The position numbers were made by a program, and so were the translations under genes. DNA of 64,000 bases from Opeltia flavorubescens (taxonomy: Eukaryota; Ascomycota; Lecanoromycetes; Teloschistales; Teloschistaceae). The notes below the pieces were generated by a model, which did no database searches, was not told where the DNA came from, and was given only the letters and a program-made list of their open reading frames with translations. Position 1 is the first letter of the stretch; every line of letters begins with the position of its first letter. Shown here piece after piece: positions 1 to 47,800 of the stretch. Location: assembly GCA_000442125.1 (NCBI GenBank), contig KE546976.1:558001-622000 (forward strand), read 5' to 3'.

Positions 1-629
1 AGGTAATGAACGGACCAGGTGGCCGGGCGCTTGGGGGAGAGAGACGCATTCATTTGCTCATTCTGGCATTTGTGATACCACGGGTCTCTGACCCATTGCA
101 GGCGTTGCATCTCTGGTTCGGAAGATAATGACCACAAGCACCATGGTGGCGAAAAAAGTTCAAGCGAGCAATCAAACAGAAAAACTTGCCAGGCCAGGAA
201 CAGTGCATAGCTGCACTACCAATTTCCCTTGTGCAATCTTGCAGTGTGCAGTGATCGGCAGCTTACCTTGTATGCAAGCTGCAATATCCCGTTTCTATCA
301 AGTCCACAGAAGAGGTAATTATCCGAGTAACTCTCAACATCCTTAATGACCATTCGAAGCAAATGTATTTATAAATGATGCTTCAGAAATTGATGGGCGG
401 GTTTTGGTCAAAATAACAATACGTCAGATATCAGCATTATATGCCCGGTAAGGGGCTGTCTTTTGGGCTAGCGAATAGCTCGTCGCGGCAGCTCCATTAG
501 GGAACATAGTAGACATTAGAGTAGCGTAAGCAGAATATGATCCCCGGTTGAAATAGGGAATGCAGTACATCCTAGAAGCGAAGAAACAACTCAAGATAAT
601 ATAAGATCTTAAAATTCTTCCTCTATTAT
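1..629. other. Left-edge region without a supported gene
   Basis: No gene can be supported here. On the minus strand an open reading frame runs from about position 120 off the left edge and could be the end of an exon of a gene outside the window, but it matches nothing I recognise. The stretch immediately before the tRNA gene is A/T-rich with no obvious element. Confidence 0.3.
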
Positions 630-756
630 GCATCAATAGTTCAGGGGTTAGAATTCGAGCTTCCCATGCTCGAGAGCGGGGGTAAGTGCTTCTTCAGTCC
701 AATATGATTGGAGTGCACGTCTAACATTACCATTAAGTTCGAGTCCCCGTTGATGC
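630..756 (+). tRNA. tRNA-Gly (anticodon CCC) interrupted by a 56-nt GT-AG intron in the T arm
   Basis: Removing 682-737 leaves a perfect 71-nt tRNA-Gly: 7-bp acceptor stem (630-636 with 750-756), D arm GTTC/GAAT, anticodon stem CGAGC/GCTCG around loop TTCCCAT, 4-nt variable loop, and T arm CGGGG-TTCGAGT-CCCCG. This matches the usual eukaryotic tRNA-Gly plan. The insertion splits the T arm between positions 53 and 54, whereas known nuclear tRNA introns in fungi lie next to the anticodon (37/38). Its ends are GTAAGT and AG, with CTAAC at 721-725, the signals of a spliceosomal intron of typical fungal size. Because the intron ends in G, the genomic B box still reads GTTCGAGTCC, so Pol III promoter function may be intact. 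It could instead be a tRNA pseudogene with a chance insertion, but all arms pair without error, which argues against that. Confidence 0.85.
682..737 (+). other. Putative spliceosomal-type intron inside the tRNA-Gly gene
   Basis: The 56-nt insertion starts GTAAGT and ends AAG, with a CTAAC branch-like motif whose A lies 13 nt before the acceptor. It also holds a hairpin: GTGC (686-689) with GCAC (715-718), and inside that TCCAAT (698-703) with ATTGGA (707-712) around an ATG loop. No run of four T is present, so it should not terminate Pol III. What is seen are the signals and the clean reading of the tRNA without it; removal by the spliceosome is inference. Confidence 0.7.
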
Positions 757-766
757 AAAAAATATA

Positions 767-777
767 TTTTTGTTTTT
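767..777 (+). terminator. Pol III terminator of the tRNA-Gly gene
   Basis: Two runs of five T (767-771 and 773-777) start ten bases after the tRNA 3' end, which is the usual RNA polymerase III stop signal. Their presence supports active transcription of the gene. Confidence 0.6.
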
Positions 778-5656: not shown

Positions 5657-7060
5657 TCAACTGGGATTTTTTGGATACAGCACTTGCCAATCTATTGGCG
5701 TTCTAACCGCTCTTTTGTGCTTCTTAGTCCTTGGGTGGGCATCCCATTCTTTTTGTGTCATCAAAGTCATTTTACATATCTCACAATACCGTGCTTTAAT
5801 TTGCTGTTTTGCAGAAGGAATAAAAGCCTTACTTTCGACGTTGGATGGATTACTTGGCGTTGGACTTTGTCTTCCTTCAAGAAATGCAGATACAACAGTA
5901 CATGCAGTCGATCCGACTTTGTGCTGCCACTGGAGATGCTCAGTACCATTGAGCAGTGCTAATTTATCCCGTACGCCATTTTCCTGGAAGGCTTCAAGTA
6001 GCTTGCGTCGGATCCATCGATGTTGCCGCCTAGCATACTGCCGCGTCGCAGCCTGAGTCTTCGCAACGCCTTTTTTTTTGAGCTCTGCAAGACGACCGAT
6101 AGGTAGGCTACCCTCCTCGTCCGCTACGATGTATGGGAGTAGTTCCTTGAAGCCAATAGCAGCCCATATACCACTGCTTTGATCGACGTGATTTCCACCG
6201 TCCTCCTGCTTCTTTAAATCCTGCAGCATTGACCTCACTTCTTCCGTCAAACCAGATCGAACCATATTTTCGACGCGTTGATTCAACCTTACAGACAACT
6301 CATCAAGGTCTGCATAGATCCATAGTATCAAAGCGTCATATCGTAGCGGTGACAGATCTATCTGGGTAGAGATCCTGCTTTGCTCCTTGGTCTCAAGTTC
6401 CAGAGACTGGCGTTGATGGATTTTAGACATCGATTCGCGTTGCTCGCGGTATAGGTCCGATGGCTTTTTACCCGTCGTAAAATGGACCTCTAGACTATGC
6501 CGGATTTTTCGCCGGTCATTCGGATGCCATCGCGATGCATGCTCTGGATCAATTTTCTGAAGCTCAGCAAGCATATCCTCTGTAGATGCTGCTAGTATAG
6601 GCCATTCCCTCTCCTGGGCTTCGGTGGTACGATGACCCGCGCCCAGATTGGCTAAGCTATTCTCGAAGAGGAGTGATTGAATGTAATAATGGGTGCCACC
6701 AACCACGATGGGGATCTTGCCTCTGTCGACTATTTCATGGATGATCCGATCGGCGGCTCCGACAAACTTCCCTACCGCCCATGGTTCTTCATTCAAACTG
6801 ACACAGCCTAGAAGATGATGTGGTATCGATTTCCTCTCGGTAAAGGGTAATTTGTTTGTTGCTATCGGCAGACCCTCATACATCTGCAACGCGTCTGCAT
6901 TGATGATTTCGCCATTGAATTTCACGGCTAGTGAAACTGCAAGCTAGAGTAATTTAGCAGGCATAATCAAACTCCTCCAGGTCACGCATACTTCAGATTT
7001 GCCAGTACCAGTAGCCCCAGCGATTGCTATGACACGGTGCTTCGCGAATGACGTTGACAT
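5657..7060 (-). CDS. MOD5: tRNA dimethylallyltransferase (i6A37 synthesis)
   Basis: Two exons, 7060-6992 and 6943-5657, with a 48-nt intron; 451 residues. The enzyme adds an isopentenyl group from DMAPP to A37 of tRNAs reading UNN codons, in cytosol and mitochondria in yeast. The first exon holds the P-loop GATGTGKSE, which the intron follows directly. Then come INADALQMYEGLPIATNK, the HHLLG block and VVGGTHYYIQSLLFEN. The C-terminus has a matrin/U1-type zinc finger, CEICKMTLMTQKEWDAH followed by KKHKR, as in eukaryotic family members. The 5' end faces CAF16 across about 270 bp, which likely holds both promoters. Confidence 0.95.
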
Positions 7061-8395: not shown

Positions 8396-10928
8396 CTATT
8401 TTACATCGAGAGATATCGATAGGACTCTTATCGAGCAATCTTCACTAGAAATCGCCAATTGCCCGGATGGTTGATCGGGAGTCTTTGCATTAAGGTCCGT
8501 GTCCCGATCTGTTATGTGAGGCCGCCATCGAAGCTGTGTGATAGATTTAGAAGCATAAAAGCTAGGTAGGAAGTCAGCCCTCATCGGTGCTCGACGAACA
8601 CGTTCACTTACCAGTTGTCAAGCCTGTGAGATGAGCTGATAGTCAATGTAGGTTTCGTGATCAGATGTATGGTCACGCTACCATCCTCCTCCGCCGCTGC
8701 CAATACTAGTATGTTTTCCAGGGCTTGAAGTGCATCGACTGCTGTAACCGGCGAAGCTGTGGAGATTGTGGTTATTGCCTCTTTGTCACTTTTCGCAAGA
8801 TCCCAGACTTTACAGGTCTTGTCTCTGCCAGCAGTAACGAATATTTCTCCTGCTGTGCTCGGCGCCCAGCAAGCGCTCAGTATCATTCGTGAATGAGCTC
8901 TCAGGTTCCTGGTTTTCATGTGGAACACTGAACGGTCGATGTCATTTCTTTCAAATAAAGCCCACTGTCTGTCTCGTCCAGCGCTTAGCAGATATCGATC
9001 GTCGTTTCTGAATTGTAGAGATGTCACAGTCAAGGAGTGAGCGGTCAGGGATGGTCCTACGGCTCTCCAATTTCTGGTTTCAAACAGGCGAATGACCGCA
9101 TGGTCCAAAGAGCTAGCTTTACAAGCTGTGGCGATGACTGAACCATCATGGCTGGAGGCGACAGCAGAAATCTCGTAGCCATGCCCATACAATTTCTCTC
9201 TCTCTGGCCACAGAGTGTGCCGTGCAAGATCATCTTCAATTGGAGGACGTGCTTTCTCTTGGGTCGCCTTGTCGGCTGAAGGAGCAGACGGTGATGAGCT
9301 AACCTCTGTGAATGGTCTATCTTGATCCGACAGATTTTCAGCTCCCTTTTGCACCGTTTTATTCGACAACCCCAAGACGGGAACATTGGCAGCTCCGGGG
9401 AGCTCCTTCTCGGAAAGAGTCCATATACCGCAAAGCCTTCGTAGCAGCTCAGCTGTACACTGAGGCTCGTCGAATACCCTCAACAACTTCTCATCTGCAC
9501 CTGATACGAACTGGAGCTCACCCACGGTATCAATGCAATTGAGATCATAGCCATGGATCTGTGGTCGCCCAATCTCATGCCAGGATTTTCGTCCTTCGCC
9601 AATCCACTCTGCATGCAGCCGTGTCGTTTGGTCTGATCCAGTTGTGAGAAGGTAAGAGCCATCCTTAGCCCAAGCAATGTCCGTCGCCGATTTTGTATGG
9701 CCACTGATACCGACGCCATGCACCCAACGCTGGCGATCTCTGTCATAGTTCCACAGCCTCCAACTACCGGTCCTCCCCAGGCTGACTACACTCTGTCCGT
9801 CATCTGACCAAAGTCCGGTCCAAAATCCTCCTACACCACCAGTCGCTGTTGTTGAACCCTTCTGTGCACTAATCTCGCCAAGCCGAGTAGTACAAACCCA
9901 GACTCCAGAATCCGTATCGGTGTCCCACATGGCGAGCGAGCTGTCAGCTGAAGCGGAGAGGAGCCGTACTTTCCCATCGTTCCTTTGCCACGCAACCGTG
10001 TAGATCCAATCCTCATGGCCGAGGAGAAGAGCTTCGAAGGTAATGAAAAACAGATCGGACGCAGTGCGAACTTTATGTGTCTTGTTCGACAAGAGACTCT
10101 CGAAATCAAGGTTCTCTTCTAGTTTATGGTCATTTTCTTGCATAGATTTGGTGATTTTATGAATGCGCCAAAGCCTGATGTACTTATCCTGGCTTGCGGA
10201 GGCTAGTAGAAAGTCACTATCGACGCCGTCGTTCTCTACTGTCACGGCCAGCGAGCGAATCCAACCTTCATGCCCGCTGAGCGTTGCCTGATGAGTAAAC
10301 CCGTTTTTACTCTTGATGTAGACGTAGATGTTGGCTTGTGTGCCGGCTGCTGCCAGGAGGAAGTTATCCTGATCTAAGGCAGACAAAGCGAGAGCTAATG
10401 GAAGGAATTTCGGGCTGGTCTGAATGGTTTGCAATACAGATACTTTCCACTTAGGATTCGCACGATCAACCTTCCAGATCTTGATGAATGCATCAGCTCC
10501 ACCTGAGGCAAGTATCCCACTCCCTCGAACAACAGCTAGGCAATTAATGGAGCCCGCGTGGCCTGCGAGTATGCCGGCTGGACTGTAGAATTTGTGATGT
10601 AGCTGGTCAGGCTCCCAGAGTCTAATTGTCTGATCGACCGAGGCACTGACTATTAAACTTGACCACTCTTTCGCAGGACGAAAGAATTTTACAGCAATCA
10701 CATCTTCACTATGGCCGCGTAGAAGTGTGGAAACGCCTTCGTAGGGATTTCTCTTAGTTTATAAGCTCAGGGAATCAACGATGTAGTTTTTAATCTTACC
10801 AGAGGATCCCAAATCGCTACATTCCTGTTACTCCCAAAAGCTACCAGTCCAGTAGTCGAGTCCCAGTCCGCGGCCGCTGGATGTCTATTGCCGCCTGCAG
10901 AGATGTATTCGTTCTGAAATTTGACCAT
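8396..10928 (-). CDS. ELP2: Elongator complex subunit 2, WD40 protein
   Basis: Three exons: 10928-10800, 10752-8612, 8561-8396; 811 residues. Elp2 is the double beta-propeller scaffold of Elongator, which makes cm5U34-type wobble modifications on tRNA. WD repeats are seen along the whole length, for example SSLIVSASVDQTIRLWEPD, GHAGSINCLAV, GHEGWIRSLAV, GHEDWIYTVAW, YLLTTGSDQTTRLHAEW and FVTAGRDKTCKVWDL. The unspliced reading stops at 8608, but a strong GTAAGT donor overlaps that stop and the next exon supplies the typical Elp2 end (SKSITQLRWRP, LAISSEDCSIRVL). Exon 1 encodes MVKFQNEYISAGGNRHPAAA. It shares a 475-bp divergent promoter with URM1. Confidence 0.95.
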
Positions 10929-21434: not shown

Positions 21435-24205
21435 ATGGCCGACTACGAAAGACGAAATGGTGGCCAACGTGGAGGCTACAACCATCGGAAACGACGACAT
21501 AGAGGTAAAGCATCTATCAGAGCTTAGGACCATGCGCTGACGCACTTACGGAAGAGGACGATGATCTGGACCGTCGCCCACCCCGCAGACAGTACCAGGA
21601 GCCGGTGCACCTCAAAGTACGCAAGCAGTTACTCACCATCGCTGAGTCGGTACGTACAGCCTGGACATCTTCCTCCCCGACCTGGCCAGCTCTGACGGCC
21701 AGCAGCCGCTCAAGAAGACCGATGAGGAAATCAAAACTATCGCAACTATCGTCGCTGAGAATCGTGACGACGTTGAAATATGTGGGACCTTTTCGGACTT
21801 GATTCTGCAACTGTAATGACTCTTTGCCTTGATGACTATCGGTGTGTGATTGACATTCAAACAGAATCACCGAACAAGCCCTCAAAATCCCTTTCGTCGC
21901 AGCAGTTACACTTGTTCTTAACGCTCGGGCACCTGAGCTCGTCCAAGATATACTAATAAAGTCGACAATGGCCCTCAACGAGCAGTTCAAAGCCGGAGCA
22001 TGGCGCGAAGTCAAACTTCTCTTGCGCTTTTTGGCTTGCTTACAGGGTATTCTGGAAGACAACGGCGTCTTTCCAATCTTGGAAGAGCTGTTCTCCCGAT
22101 CTGTAGATCTGCAGACTGCTTCGTCGGAAGATGTAAAGCCACTTCTTCCAGAAAGCCGATCCAGCTGATCCTTTGGCAGAGTCTTGGGCTGGAGATTGTG
22201 AAGATCATTCTTCTGACAATACCCTACATAATGGCTTCGTCTGCGTCAGGCTTCGGAGTGCATGCCACATCCCTATTGGAGAAGACAGACATCATTGCCT
22301 CGACCCCCCACGCACTCGAGGCTCTGGTCGACCCATACCCCGGAAGCGGGAATGATACGGGCCATGAAGTGCAAAGTGTCATTAGTCTCCTGCAAAAGCA
22401 GCTACAAGGCGAAGCTGACCGGTCGTGGGAGCTGGCTTGCCTTCCTCGTCCGTGGAATACATCTCCTGTCGTGGATGAAGCCGAGCTAAGTACACCGACA
22501 AAGCACTCCTTGCCGCTTGTCACCGTGCCTTCTCCAGTCTCCCCAGGTGTCCGGGCTCAACTACCGGAAGTCTACTCCTCGGTCTATGCGGATCAAGACA
22601 TCGAGACAGTACCACCAACATCAAATATTGCATCGCTCTTGCTCAGAGACTCGCTCGTTGATACCATCAACACTCTGGACTACAATCGAAACGCCACAGC
22701 GAAGTTTCTGATCGATTTGGATTGCTATTTCTCCTCAGAAACCTTCGTCAAACGAGCTACCCCATTCGATAGACTTCGGGAGGTTGAAGCAGGCAAGTCG
22801 ACTTGGAAACCCGAAGATGTGGCTGTTGATGCTGTTTTCTCTCAACTACTACAGCTGCCGAATCCGCAGCACAAGTTAGTTTACTATCATGCTGTCTTGA
22901 CGGAATCTTGCAAGATTGCACCAGCAGCGATTGCTCCAAGTTTAGGCCGTGCTATCCGCTACCTCTACCAAAACGTTGATGCAATGGACATGGAACTGGA
23001 GTATAGATTCATGGACTGGTTCACTCATCATTTGAGCAATTTCGGATTTACTTGGAAATGGACCGAATGGTAAGGGACCTGTCATTGGACTCGTGAATGG
23101 CTCCTTACAATACTGCAGGGTTGATGACGTTGAGCTCCCTCTAGCCAAGCCAAAGAAAGCATTCATTGTCGGCGCTCTTGAGAAAGAAATCCGTCTGAGC
23201 TTTGCGCAACGCATCCGCGGAACCCTTCCAGAACCGTACCAAGCCTTGATAACAGAAGCGAAGGAGAAAGACATTCCCGATTTTAAGTATAGTTCTGACC
23301 GTAAGTAAGCTTCTGCTAGTCTCCTGCTGTCCACATTGATGTCCTAACCAAAAATTGCAGAAACACCATACGCGCCCCAAGCTCGAGAGATCCTTCGGCT
23401 CCTCAAGGCAAAAGCTCTCGACTCCGAAATTGAACCCCACCTACAATCTTTGGAGGCTGAAGCTGCCTCGCTTGGTGTCGATGACACCCTCGTTCCTTCC
23501 ACAGACGCCTACATAACCGCAATTTGCTTCATTGGCAGCAAATCACTCTCGCATGTCCTTAGCTGCATTGAACGCTGCAAGGATCGGCTGCTGGCCCTTG
23601 GGCCTCGATCAGAAGCCGCAAGACGACAGATTATTTCATCCGTGATGGATTACTGGACCGAAAAACCCGGTGTGGGCGTCAATATAGTAGATAAGTTGCT
23701 CAACTATACCATCTTAACTCCAATGAGCGTTATCAACTGGGCGCTGGTGGATAATATCGGTAAAGGCAAGATCCTGACACAGGCACATATGTACGAGATG
23801 ATCGCAAGTACAATACAAAAGGTCACCAACCGTGTCCGGCAGATCGCCATGGCAAGGAGCCAGCCTGGATTGCCTGTAGACCAGATTGCGATGTTGGACG
23901 AGACCTTGGGGAAAGAGAGAGCCCAAATGAAGGAATTGTTCGCGACCGTAGAGGACGCGCTCGTGGGCGTGGCGAGCGGAATCGTAGACGAGATGGCGGA
24001 ATCGAGGAACCAGGATACAGAAGGGGAGGCAGTGTTGAGAGGGTGGGGCGAGAGGTGGGTGAGGGTTTTCAGGAGGAAGATGGCTGTTGAAGAGGCTTGG
24101 ATTGGAGAGGTATTGGCAAATCCGGAAGGCACGGATGGTCTGGCGGCAAATGGAAATGGGGTGCTGAAGATGCAGGAAGAGGATGTTGACAACGGAGTGT
24201 CGTGA
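21435..24205 (+). CDS. CBP80: Nuclear cap-binding complex large subunit (CBP80)
   Basis: Seven exons: 21435-21504, 21555-21649, 21703-21812, 21865-22132, 22180-23069, 23119-23300, 23361-24205; 819 residues. With CBP20 it binds the m7G cap of new Pol II transcripts and assists splicing, export and decay. The N-terminus is Arg/Gly-rich (YERRNGGQRGGYNHRKRRHR). The MIF4G regions show LITEQALKIPFVAAVTLVLN, EVKLLLRFLACLQGILEDNG, LGLEIVKIILLTIPY and RNATAKFLIDLDCYF, then the C-terminal block WYWTEK-like VMDYWTEKPGVGVNIVDKL. Introns 2 and 4 were placed by frame: a read-through there gives stops or breaks the conserved sequence. Confidence 0.94.
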
Positions 24206-28709: not shown

Positions 28710-31070
28710 TCACTGCCAAGGTCCATATCTGATACAGCCACTTGTTAGTCCAAGGCTACAACTTATATTCGGGACAAACTTGCCTCCAGATACGTGCTGC
28801 CTTGTCTCCGCTGCCGGTAGCGAAAAGCTCACCCTGAGGGCTGGGGGCCACAGAAATAACTGTGAAGTAACGGCAGTCAGCATGCATATATCAGTAACTA
28901 CTTGCTCACTCCTGGAATTGTTAGTGTCGTCTGAGGTTGTCACGTCATTACCTGAATTCTTATGTCCTTGGAGCATCAACTGCGCATCTCCTGTCCGAGG
29001 ATCCCAGAATTGTACACCTCGGTCTTTGGAACCGCTCAACACCCAGCGACCGTCTGGTGTGAGAGCCACACTCAAGACGAAATCCTAAGTTTCGTCAGCT
29101 AATGTAAAGCGGCCTGAGACTCTGTAGAGAGGTGATCATCACCTTATGACCTTCGAATGTCTTCACACACTTGCCCACTCGCTCTCTAGAACCAATACCA
29201 GGACCCATCATCCCCCGAGTGTCAGCCAACTCCCACATCTTAATGGTCTTATCCAAACTGCCACTGACGAGTGATCTACCGTTCGGTGCAAAAGCCACCG
29301 AATAGACGCTATCCTTGTGCCCCTCGTTGCCATCCAGCCTGTCGATAAGATGGCCAGTACGCACGTCCCACACCCTTACGCTCTTGTCAAGAGACCCTGC
29401 CGAAACGAAGTCACCCCCTGGTGAGATAGCGACGGTGGTCACGCCATCGTCAATGTTTAGACTCAAGACCTCGCGACCACTATCAATGTCCCATACTCGC
29501 ACTGTTCGATCCCCGCTACCCGAGGCAATGTGCTTGCCGTCACGGGCAAAATCGAGAGAGTAGATATCTTGCTCATGCCCGACGAAAGTATTTCGAATCG
29601 CCTGTGAGGCAATATCCCAAACCTGAAATGTCTCATTAGATCGCGTTCAACAAAGGAGGAGCATAGACAGACCCTGATTTGCTTGTCTTCTGNACCAGTT
29701 GCCAAGTACTTTCCATCGGGACTGAAGCAAACGCTCCGGATGTAGAGATCGCCTTCCTTGTCGACTGATTCGTCCTGAAGTTTTGTAACTTGAGCACCGG
29801 TCCCTACATCGAATATTTGCGCCGAGCGGTTGCACCCGGTTGCGACATATCGACCGTCATAGCTAAATCTGACACAGCACACGACGCTGTCGTGGCTTAA
29901 AGTGTGCACGAGATCAACATCGAGCACACGTGGGATCCGCGGGTTAAATATCGCAAACCAATCGGCGCCTTCACGCTTTTGCTCCGGCCGTAATGACTCC
30001 AGCTCAAGATCAGCCAGGTTGTTGATGATTTGATGGCCTTGATGCTGGGGTGGTGACGGTGGTCTCCCGAGTTGCGGTGAAGGTCTAGGGTCGGGATACG
30101 AAGTGGACGGAGCTTGATGTGGAGTGGTCGGCCCTGGAGGCCCACGGTTTATCCGCCCTTTTCCTGGGCCTGGGGATGCTGTCGTTTGCGGGGCCTGCTG
30201 ATTGTATCCTTCGATGCAGATCAGTCATCCAAACTCGCCGCAAGAGGAGCCTTCCAGTCGTGTCTGACTGGACAATGACTTACCACCATTTACCCCGTGT
30301 GGTGGAGGATAGCCACCAAAACTGCCCTGCTGCAACCCCTGCGAGCCTCCCATCTGGTGAGTAGGGGGGACCTGTTGTTGCTGCTGCTGCTGTTCCTGAG
30401 TAGGTGGAACAAGGCCAGGAGCCCCCTGACCTGGTGGGTTTGCCATGATTCCTCCAAAGAGGTTGCTTGGACCATGGCCAATGACAGGCGGCTGAGGCTG
30501 GGGGACTCCTGCATGTGGAGGTAGACCATTAATGTTCACATGAGAGGGTGGTCCACCGCGAGCCTCGAGCTCATGACGGAGACGTGCGATATCCTCTTCG
30601 TATCTTTGCAGCCAGAATTTAGATCTTTCCTATCCGTAGCCATTCGTCTACAACGTACCTTTGTTTGATTGCGTTCTGATTCTGTTCCAGGTTGTAGACT
30701 TTCTGCCTGACTAGCTCCATCTCCTGCACCTGCTGCGCCACTAGTGATTCTATCAGTGTCTGTACTCTCAGGTTTGCCATCTGGCTTCTGCAGCTTCGGC
30801 AGCGGTTGGATAATCAGTCCCCTAGTGCTTGAAGCTCCGACTTTCGATTTGGTGATGGTGCGTCTATAAGACATGGACTGCCAGACAAAGCTACGGAAAC
30901 CTGCAGCAGAAACACGGATGACATAGCATTTGGAAAACAGCAAACTCACTATTTTGCTCATATTCACCAGCACGGCTCTGCTGATTGTCAAACTCTTGAC
31001 GGACCTGGTCCAACAGTTCCGTCAAACGGCTGCTGGGTGCAGGAGGAATTCCACGATGCGCGTTATACAT
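28710..31070 (-). CDS. TUP1: Tup1/RcoA-type transcriptional co-repressor
   Basis: Eight exons: 31070-30950, 30740-30659, 30603-30284, 30208-29673, 29622-29143, 29084-28952, 28859-28784, 28728-28710; 588 residues. With Cyc8/Ssn6 it represses many gene sets through histones and Mediator. The N-terminal 90 residues form the tetramer coiled coil ([51 protein letters not shown]). Next comes a Pro/Gln-rich linker with a run of seven Gln, the conserved [20 protein letters not shown], and seven WD40 repeats (such as [36 protein letters not shown]). Intron 1 is long (209 nt). The last intron begins GCAAGT (GC-AG) and leads to a 19-nt exon giving the end WRYGPWQ. Base 29,692 is N, leaving one residue unknown. 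Confidence 0.94.
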
Positions 31071-44892: not shown

Positions 44893-47800
44893 TATCCTTT
44901 TTTTATAATAATATTTTTATTATTTTATAATTAAGCGATATATATATAATAAATAATTAAGCTTTTTATATAAAGCGCGCGTATTTAAACGCGTATTAGT
45001 TAAATTAATAANTTAAAANTANNNNATANTAATANNNNTTTATATATAAAACGTTTTATTATTATATATAAAATATATAAATAGTTTTATTTTATATATT
45101 AAAAATTATTTAATATTAATATTAATATTAGCTATCGCGTTATAATATATTATTAATACCTTTTAATATTTATTAAATATTTATATTAAAATATATTTAT
45201 AAAAATTAATATTATTTAATANTTTTATTTAATAGTTATATTATANTATAATAATTATAATAATTAAAACTATTAAATTTTAAATAATTTAATTTATATT
45301 ACTAGCGTTATAAATCTCGCGTTAAATAGTATAATTNTATTTTTTATTTATAAATATATAATAAATATTTTTTTTTTAGTATAAATCTATTTTCTAATTT
45401 AAATTTTTATTATTTTTACTATACTTTACCTTTATTTACTAGTTTTATTTTTTTATAAATTTTCTTTAATTTTTATATTTTTTATTATAAGTTTTAAAAC
45501 TTTTAAAACTTTAATAATTAAAAAAAATTTTTANAATATATAAACGCCTAATATTTTAATATTATTAAATACTTTAATTTTATAAAAGAATTACTACTAT
45601 TAATATATTAAAACTAGTATTATAATATATATTATTTATTTAATACTACTATTTAATAATTTTTAATAAAAAATAAATAAAAAATAATTTTATTACCTAT
45701 TATATTCTTATTTATTATATAAAATCTAGTATTAGTTCTAAATATTATATATATTATTTTAAATTTTAAAAAAAATATAAGCTAATATATTAAGTCTATA
45801 TATCGCGGTAGTTTTTTTAATTTATATAAATCTTTTAAAAATTTATTTCGATTATTAATAAGATAATCTCCGCTATTATTACTACTAATATTATTAATAA
45901 TAATAAAAAGCGATATATTACGCGCTATTTATATATTATTATCTTTTCTAATTATAAATAAATTAAAGTTTAGGAAAAAACTAAAATGTAGACTGGTTAG
46001 GTCGGGTCGAATTGGGTCGGGTTAAACCCAGATTTTTAGTTTAGTAGTCGGTTTTAAATTAGATTATTAGCGAATTAAGTTAAATCCGGGTTAAATTACT
46101 AGCGAGTTAAGTTAATTTTAAGTCTTAAATTTTAAATTAAAAGTCGAGTTAAGTTATAAAATTTAAATTAATAACTTAATTTAATAATTTAACCTAACCT
46201 AACTTTTTTATAAATTATATTAATAAAAATTTAAACTTTAGAATTTAAATAAAATTTTTATTTTATTATTATTTTTAAATTATATTATTTCTAATTTTAA
46301 TTTAATTATATCGACTAATAAATAAAATTTTAATAGAAAAACTTAAATAGTTTAAGCTTTAAATAAATTTTATTATTAATATTAAAAAAAATATATTTAT
46401 TTTTTTTATTTATAATTATAATAAATATATAATATTATTAAATAGTAATAAATTTTAAATATTTAAACTTTTTACTCGATTTAAATATATATTATATTTA
46501 ATTAATAATAATATTAAGCTAATTTATAGAATTAAAAATAAATTATATATTTTTATTTTAAATAATTACGCGTTTTATATATATAATAATAAATTAAACG
46601 TCTATTATATATTAAAATTATAGTACTAGTAATATATAAAAATAATATATTTATTTTTAAAAAATATTACTATATAAGTTTTTATAGCTTTATATAATAT
46701 ATTTAATATATTTAATTAAATATAATTAATTATAAAATTTTTATAGTTATTAATTCTATAATTTTATATATTAAAAAGTAATTTTTATATTAAATAGCTA
46801 AATAATATTTTTAAAAGTAATAATTTAGTAATTTTTTAATATTAATAAGTTTTTTATAAAATAATAATATTTAATTTAAAATAATACTATTATTAATATT
46901 AACTTATTTTACTATATAGATAAAATATTATTATTTTATATTATTTTATTAATTTTTTTTTAACTAACTCCTTCGTTATAACGGATCTTTCTTTTATAAT
47001 TAATTTTTATACCGCGAGTAACTACTCCTCTACTATACTTTTTATTTTATATATTTTTTTTATTTTAAATATTTATAATCCGAAATAGTTTAAAATAATT
47101 TTTTTTTTAATATATTAACTTCGCTAACTAGAAGTATTTCTACTATTAAATAGGCCTATATTTAATAAACCTTTATAGTTTAAAATTCGATTACTATTTT
47201 ATAATATATAGCTTAGAATATTTCTAAAAATATAACTACTCTCGCGCGAATATAAAAAAATTAACTTTTTATTATTTAATAAATAACTATTTTTTTATAG
47301 ATTCGAATAGGCTAATAAATTACTATTTTTAACTATATATATTTTATTATTCGAATCTATCTAAAATTAATAAATAATAATATTTTAAATATATTACTAT
47401 AATATATTATTAATATATTTTATTTATATTTTAATATCTAATAGCTATATAAACGCGTTTTTTATCGTTATTAATAAAAATACGCGGTAATCTAACTAGT
47501 AAATAAAATAAAAGAATAACTAGTAAAAATAAATATAATAAATATAAAATATATAAATATTTTAATTAAATAAAAATATATTAAAATTATTAAATAATAC
47601 GATTCTATAGTATATAGGATAAAAAAAATATTAAAGTTAGTTAATTAATTAAAATAAAATTTTATAATTAAACTCTAATTTTTAATAAATAATTTTAAAT
47701 TAAGTTTAAAGTTTTTACTTTAATATTAAATTATATATATTATTATATATAAAATTTTATTTTATTATATTTAACTATATTTTATTATATATTATTATAT

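Follow-up and report, generated by a model that had tools for sequence, protein, structure and literature searches.

Can a nuclear tRNA gene harbour an intron of the type removed by the spliceosome? The question is raised by a tRNA-Gly(CCC) gene of a filamentous ascomycete, which lies on the plus strand at positions 630-757 of the window (the whole 64-kb stretch of DNA analysed here) and is interrupted at Sprinzl position 53/54 by an insert of 56 nt (Table 1). Judged from the sequence, this is probably a nuclear tRNA-Gly(CCC) gene with a major-class (U2-type) spliceosomal intron, whose Pol III pre-tRNA would be spliced by the major spliceosome. This reading is the best supported one, and splicing itself is what we infer from the signals described below.

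Table 1. Features of the split tRNA-Gly(CCC) gene and the mRNA intron used for comparison
Feature	Position	Strand	Description
TATA-like element TATAAG	600-605	+	-30 from tRNA start
5' exon of tRNA-Gly(CCC)	630-681	+	52 nt, nt 1 to Sprinzl 53: acceptor strand, D arm, anticodon arm (CCC), 5' T-stem strand
GT-AG intron (putative), 56 nt	682-737	+	donor GTAAGT 682-687; branch motif CTAAC 721-725, branch A 724; acceptor AAG
Intron-internal hairpin (predicted)	686-718	+	12 bp with internal loop, -14.4 kcal/mol, z -3.19, 0/200 shuffles equally stable
Genomic B box AGTTCGAGTCC	736-746	+	10/11 versus GGTTCGANTCC; second base G is the intron's last base
3' exon of tRNA-Gly(CCC)	738-757	+	T loop TTCGAGT, 3' T stem, 3' acceptor strand, A73
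Pol III-type terminator	767-777	+	T5 runs 767-771 and 773-777, starting 10 and 16 nt after A73
CBP80 mRNA intron (very likely)	23301-23360	+	60 nt, GTAAGT, CCTAAC, CAG; evidence: open frame, location between two CBP80 domains

Exons and restored cloverleaf of the split gene

The joined exons form a mature tRNA-Gly(CCC) of 72 nt including A73, with stems of 7, 4, 5 and 5 base pairs, and the sequence across the junction reads CGGGGTTCGAGTCCCCG. Since the D loop (8 nt) and the variable loop (4 nt) are short, the 5' exon reaches Sprinzl position 53 with so few nucleotides. ARAGORN detected no tRNA at the locus in the intact, insert-bearing sequence. After removal of the insert it reported a tRNA-Gly(CCC) with 21/21 paired stem positions and the T loop TTCGA; full cloverleaf pairing, the CCC anticodon, a TTCRA T loop and A73 are all present in the joined sequence. 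The initial annotation had described a faultless 71-nt tRNA-Gly(CCC) with a 56-nt insert at 53/54. Sequence, insert and position were confirmed, whereas the length and the end at 756 omitted A73 and are corrected here to 72 nt and 757. The register of the insert is ambiguous by one base: deletion of 681-736 yields the identical product, and only one of the two registers has GT-AG borders.

A scan of 2,058 internal deletions of the gene giving products of 68-95 nt, scored by stem pairs and T loop, revealed a single product (in two equivalent registers) that combines 21/21 pairs with a TTCRA loop; among the best eight deletions listed, six others attained 21 pairs without such a loop. ARAGORN accepted 618 of the 2,058 deletions as tRNAs and is thus permissive, so that the strict cloverleaf count is the figure to trust. 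As a control, each GT-AG segment of 40-120 nt on both strands of the first 41 kb was removed (n=23,960). Three removals produced a tRNA, all at the split-gene locus: the exact insert, 686-743, and an opposite-strand segment, 689-730, that lies inside the insert.

ARAGORN, run both with its intron option and without it, detected no further tRNA in the window, and Rfam at gathering threshold gave no match across the window. A lax Rfam search of 580-800 returned a sub-threshold tRNA match at 630-701 (21 bits versus a threshold of 29), which extends into the intron, as well as three lower-scoring hits in other families, which were taken for chance. Energy minimisation of the joined tRNA predicted a rod (-29.0 kcal/mol) rather than the cloverleaf (-25.9 kcal/mol). 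Unmodified tRNAs often favour non-cloverleaf folds in such predictions. The predicted rod lends no support to spliceosomal maturation.

The gene might be dead or dying, with a recent intron-like insertion (an introner, a reverse-spliced or a stray intron) in a redundant tRNA-Gly(CCC) copy that yields no mature tRNA. A single tRNA-Gly(CCC) locus was seen, within the window. GGG accounts for 31/181 Gly codons in seven stop-to-stop ORFs of the window, so the codon needs a reader; it can, however, be read by tRNA-Gly(UCC) via wobble, so that the fungus may be able to do without the split gene, which could be dead. We nevertheless consider this unlikely, as no decay is visible in a gene with 21/21 stem pairs, a TTCGA loop and intact promoter and terminator motifs. 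The best-scoring other match of the insert in the window is only 10 nt long, an introner family was not seen there, and inspection of the insert's ends by eye revealed neither a terminal inverted repeat nor a target duplication beyond 1 nt. A ready-made spliceosomal intron would itself be spliceable, so that an insertion of this kind shades into the spliceosomal reading.

Splice signals of the insert

The insert begins with GT and ends with AG, and its donor GTAAGT conforms to GTRWGT. The branch motif occupies intron positions 40-44 and places the branch A 13 nt before the end of the intron (last G), and the acceptor is the sole AG 3' of this motif in the insert. For fungal introns, RCTRAY is given as branch consensus, 6-36 nt as the range of branch-acceptor distances and 15 nt as the mean for U3 introns (PMC5832005). 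The spacing in the insert lies within this range, and its branch sequence TCTAAC deviates from the consensus at the first base. The acceptor AAG departs from YAG, which is a strong preference and not strictly a defining feature of U2-type introns. In the predicted intron hairpin, GUAA, the branch motif and the acceptor are unpaired, and donor bases 5-6 are paired.

The frequency of such signals was counted at a fixed length of 56 nt over 81,886 positions (both strands of the first 41 kb, with two registers each). GT...AG ends were found at 576 positions, at 8 together with a GTRWGT donor, and at 6 when a branch motif with at most one mismatch was added; with this branch motif and one donor mismatch also allowed, the count rose to 38 of the 81,886. 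The strict combination of GTAAGT, CTAAC and AG occurred at two positions. Because the two registers of the insert fill two positions, the strict set is found at 0/81,884 others and the set of GTRWGT and branch motif at four. With free spacing, the pattern matched twice in the 64-kb window (the insert and the CBP80 intron of Table 1) versus 0.48 matches expected, and at least two matches were obtained in 11 of 100 shuffles; in this form it is not rare over the whole window.

The CBP80 match is very likely a real mRNA intron, since it is flanked by two MIF4G-like CBP80 pieces and can be excised without closing the frame. When an upstream intron at 23070-23118, or less likely 23019-23118, is excised as well, the frame is open for 478 or 461 codons, respectively. 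As it shares GTAAGT and the branch core, the insert carries the donor and branch core used in an mRNA intron of the same genome. Eighteen further motif-selected candidate introns of the window were not counted as evidence, as the set certainly includes false introns (three have a GAG end); two of these 18 end in AAG. The spliceosomal look noted in the initial annotation is thus borne out by donor, branch, spacing, length and the signals shared with the CBP80 intron, but not by the acceptor AAG and the first base of the branch motif, which are off consensus.

Group I and group II introns have a catalytic core of some hundreds of bases. A self-splicing intron of either group was rejected, the insert being 56 nt long and giving no Rfam intron match. 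A canonical bulge-helix-bulge (BHB) intron was likewise rejected: the canonical motif (3-nt bulges, 4 bp) pairs at 2/4 helix positions in either register, and the insert lies at 53/54 and not at the fungal 37/38.

If the insert were removed by the tRNA splicing endonuclease and a ligase, in the way of the ectopic introns in Cyanidioschyzon merolae, the GT-AG look would be a matter of chance; we regard this as highly improbable. A relaxed motif could serve, as a fully paired 3-bp central helix was found in 12 of 864 configurations, all of them in the register shifted by one base; a fully paired helix of 4 or 5 bp was found in 0/864. The fungal endonuclease cuts at 37/38, and the splice signals, absent from the 81,884 other positions, would have to be coincidental. 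Two published points help this explanation: an intron at 53/54 is described in the C. merolae tRNA-Ile(UAU) (PMC9602550), and in the nucleomorph of Guillardia theta a defined BHB is lacking from many of the ectopic tRNA introns (PMC3978253).

Spliceosomal removal is favoured because donor, branch motif, branch distance, first AG and length all fit, because no BHB with a 4-bp helix is present, and because the CBP80 intron shares the signals. The sequence, its signals, the restored cloverleaf pairing and the absence of a canonical BHB are observed or computed directly.

Pol III signals, genomic context and a candidate maturation pathway

Promoter and terminator elements were recognised by motif from the known consensus of the B box and of Pol III promoters and terminators, and the A box was judged intact by eye. 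No run of four or more T was found within 630-757. The B box spans the splice junction, and in genomic DNA the AG of the intron replaces GG; it still matches 10/11 because the last base of the intron supplies the G before TTCGA, and once spliced it matches 11/11. When an AG-ended intron was placed at 14 points, following mature nt 48 to 61, the B box stayed intact for the four insertions 5' of the 53/54 border, matched 10/11 at the border itself and at most 8/11 for the nine insertions 3' of it, which offers a reason why position 53/54 would be tolerated. The spacing between A and B box is enlarged by 56 nt in the split gene. TFIIIC tolerates such enlarged spacing. For the tRNA genes of some plants and fungi, an important role of upstream TATA boxes has been described (PMC3978253).

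The window has about 48% GC and is gene-dense until about 41.5 kb, with genes for eukaryotic proteins including GET4, IPP transferase, Elp2, Tom40, a protein kinase, CBP80 and a mitochondrial carrier. The kinase is presumably GSK3-like, and among PDB entries the Tom40 piece is best matched by 5o8o, which we take to be Tom40 of Neurospora crassa. Two tRNA-modification genes, IPP transferase (5657-6943, minus strand) and Elp2 of Elongator (8608-10758, minus strand), are found no more than about 10 kb from the split tRNA, which is probably a coincidence. The remaining part (41500-64000) is an AT-rich block with 12.3% GC, a longest stop-free run of 76 aa and many diverged AT-rich repeats. Its (CA+TG)/(AC+GT) ratio of 0.11 reflects CA/TG loss of the kind left by repeat-induced point mutation (RIP), and the block looks like RIP-ravaged heterochromatin or a centromere. 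Gene content and the RIP-like block are in keeping with a filamentous ascomycete. The window contains 18 N bases, 15 of them at 45012-45534 in the AT-rich block and the others at 29693, 48231 and 60137; the N at 29693 falls in a WD40 gene that we take to be probably Tup1.

Pattern searches with the locus gave 0 matches in viral contigs, and the GET4 protein piece had no relative there. Among prokaryotic genome contigs, the pattern of the tRNA 5' part up to nt 53 matched once, in a Pacearchaeota contig (L001, 5869-5913), which is probably an archaeal tRNA. Because only viral and prokaryotic sequences were searched, these negative results carry little information on fungi.

About 230 nt downstream of the tRNA, and on its strand, lies the GET4 gene, with a likely start codon at 991. 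The insert might consequently be part of a Pol II read-through transcript, e.g. an intron in a long GET4 5' leader, and a tRNA would arise only if the spliced RNA were processed, or never. That spliceosomes act mostly on Pol II transcripts speaks for this explanation. Pol III-type signals, however, tightly flank the tRNA, and the excision borders match the demand of the cloverleaf within the one-base register, for which a leader intron has no reason; we therefore hold Pol II read-through to be very unlikely.

For spliceosomal maturation of a Pol III transcript, we infer transcription, splicing and the order of steps as follows. Pol III would make a 128-nt precursor (TATA at -30, intact A box, B box 10/11, T5 terminator), in which the T stem could still pair and the T loop would be unable to form. 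U1 would pair with G/GUAAGU and U2 with CUAAC, the intron hairpin would bring the donor near the branch, and the spliceosome would ligate GGGG to UUCGAGU. The T loop would form after splicing, to be followed by RNase P, RNase Z, Psi55 formation and CCA addition. The precursor was predicted to fold into a long rod at -46.6 kcal/mol when unconstrained, versus -40.8 kcal/mol with the cloverleaf stems enforced. Against spliceosomal maturation we count the AAG acceptor, the TCTAAC motif one base off RCTRAY, donor bases 5-6 within the predicted hairpin, the predicted rod folds of precursor and joined tRNA, the motif pattern with free spacing, which is not rare, and the possible redundancy with tRNA-Gly(UCC).

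Our opinion is evenly balanced on a wider proposal drawn from these signals, in which the major spliceosome would act as a tRNA maturation enzyme in an ascomycete, T loop and nearly intact B box would hinge on the intron, the supply of a GGG-reading tRNA would perhaps be regulated, and such genes would have been overlooked because eukaryotic tRNA finders ignore introns outside 37/38. The case would also show that annotation can miss tRNA genes, ARAGORN and Rfam (gathering threshold) both being blank at the split locus, and the retention of the B box at 53/54 provides a simple, testable rule. If the proposal is true, the mRNA splicing machinery makes a tRNA, which joins two RNA-processing pathways held separate and extends the U6 and U3 precedents to the adaptor of translation itself.

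Comparison with known tRNA and small RNA introns

We know of no spliceosomal tRNA intron in print, and an exact-phrase search of the open-access literature found none. A phrase search of the same literature for T-arm or non-canonical tRNA introns matched only a C. merolae paper and tRNAscan-SE 2.0, whose non-canonical intron search is described, in the relevant passage, for archaeal candidates (PMC8450103).

The canonical introns of fungal nuclear tRNA genes, at 37/38 and cut by the tRNA splicing endonuclease, share with the insert their location in a nuclear tRNA gene; position and borders differ, and the insert has no canonical BHB. Closer in position is the T-arm intron of the C. merolae tRNA-Ile(UAU), which according to passages of PMC9602550 lies at exactly 53/54, as in the tRNA-Gly(CCC) described here. 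The position alone is consequently not new, which corrects the initial annotation. The same passages report that Pus4 of this red alga makes no Psi55 while the T-arm intron persists, and that D- and T-arm introns supposedly leave before the anticodon intron (PMC9602550). The disrupted tRNA genes of C. merolae are described as BHB-mediated (PMC3978253); in contrast, the insert has no BHB with a 4-bp helix, and its GT-AG ends and branch motif are those of an mRNA-type intron.

Among the closest known cases are spliceosomal introns of other small RNAs. U6 snRNA, small and structured, is a Pol III transcript, and its introns in Schizosaccharomyces pombe and other fungi likewise have GT-AG borders and are removed by the spliceosome. 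A B-box-like promoter element is located in the S. pombe U6 intron, a situation that would be matched here by the share of the tRNA intron in the B box. The host differs, being here a tRNA whose T loop would be unable to form before splicing.

Among small structured RNAs, only U3 and U6 are known to carry introns frequently (PMC5832005). The principle therefore has precedent, and the initial annotation, which knew of no described case in fungi, needs correction on this point. For U3 snoRNA introns, present in the great majority of Pezizomycotina examined, the same paper gives GT-AG borders, an RCTRAC branch in 129/138, a mean branch distance of 15 nt and a YAG acceptor in all but one (PMC5832005). 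The insert resembles them in its GT-AG borders, branch motif and comparable branch distance, and differs in the host RNA, in length (56 nt versus a mean of 92 nt) and in its acceptor (AAG versus YAG). What appears to be new here is thus a spliceosomal-type intron in a tRNA, which would extend the known cases of small structured RNAs, a claim that rises if splicing is shown.
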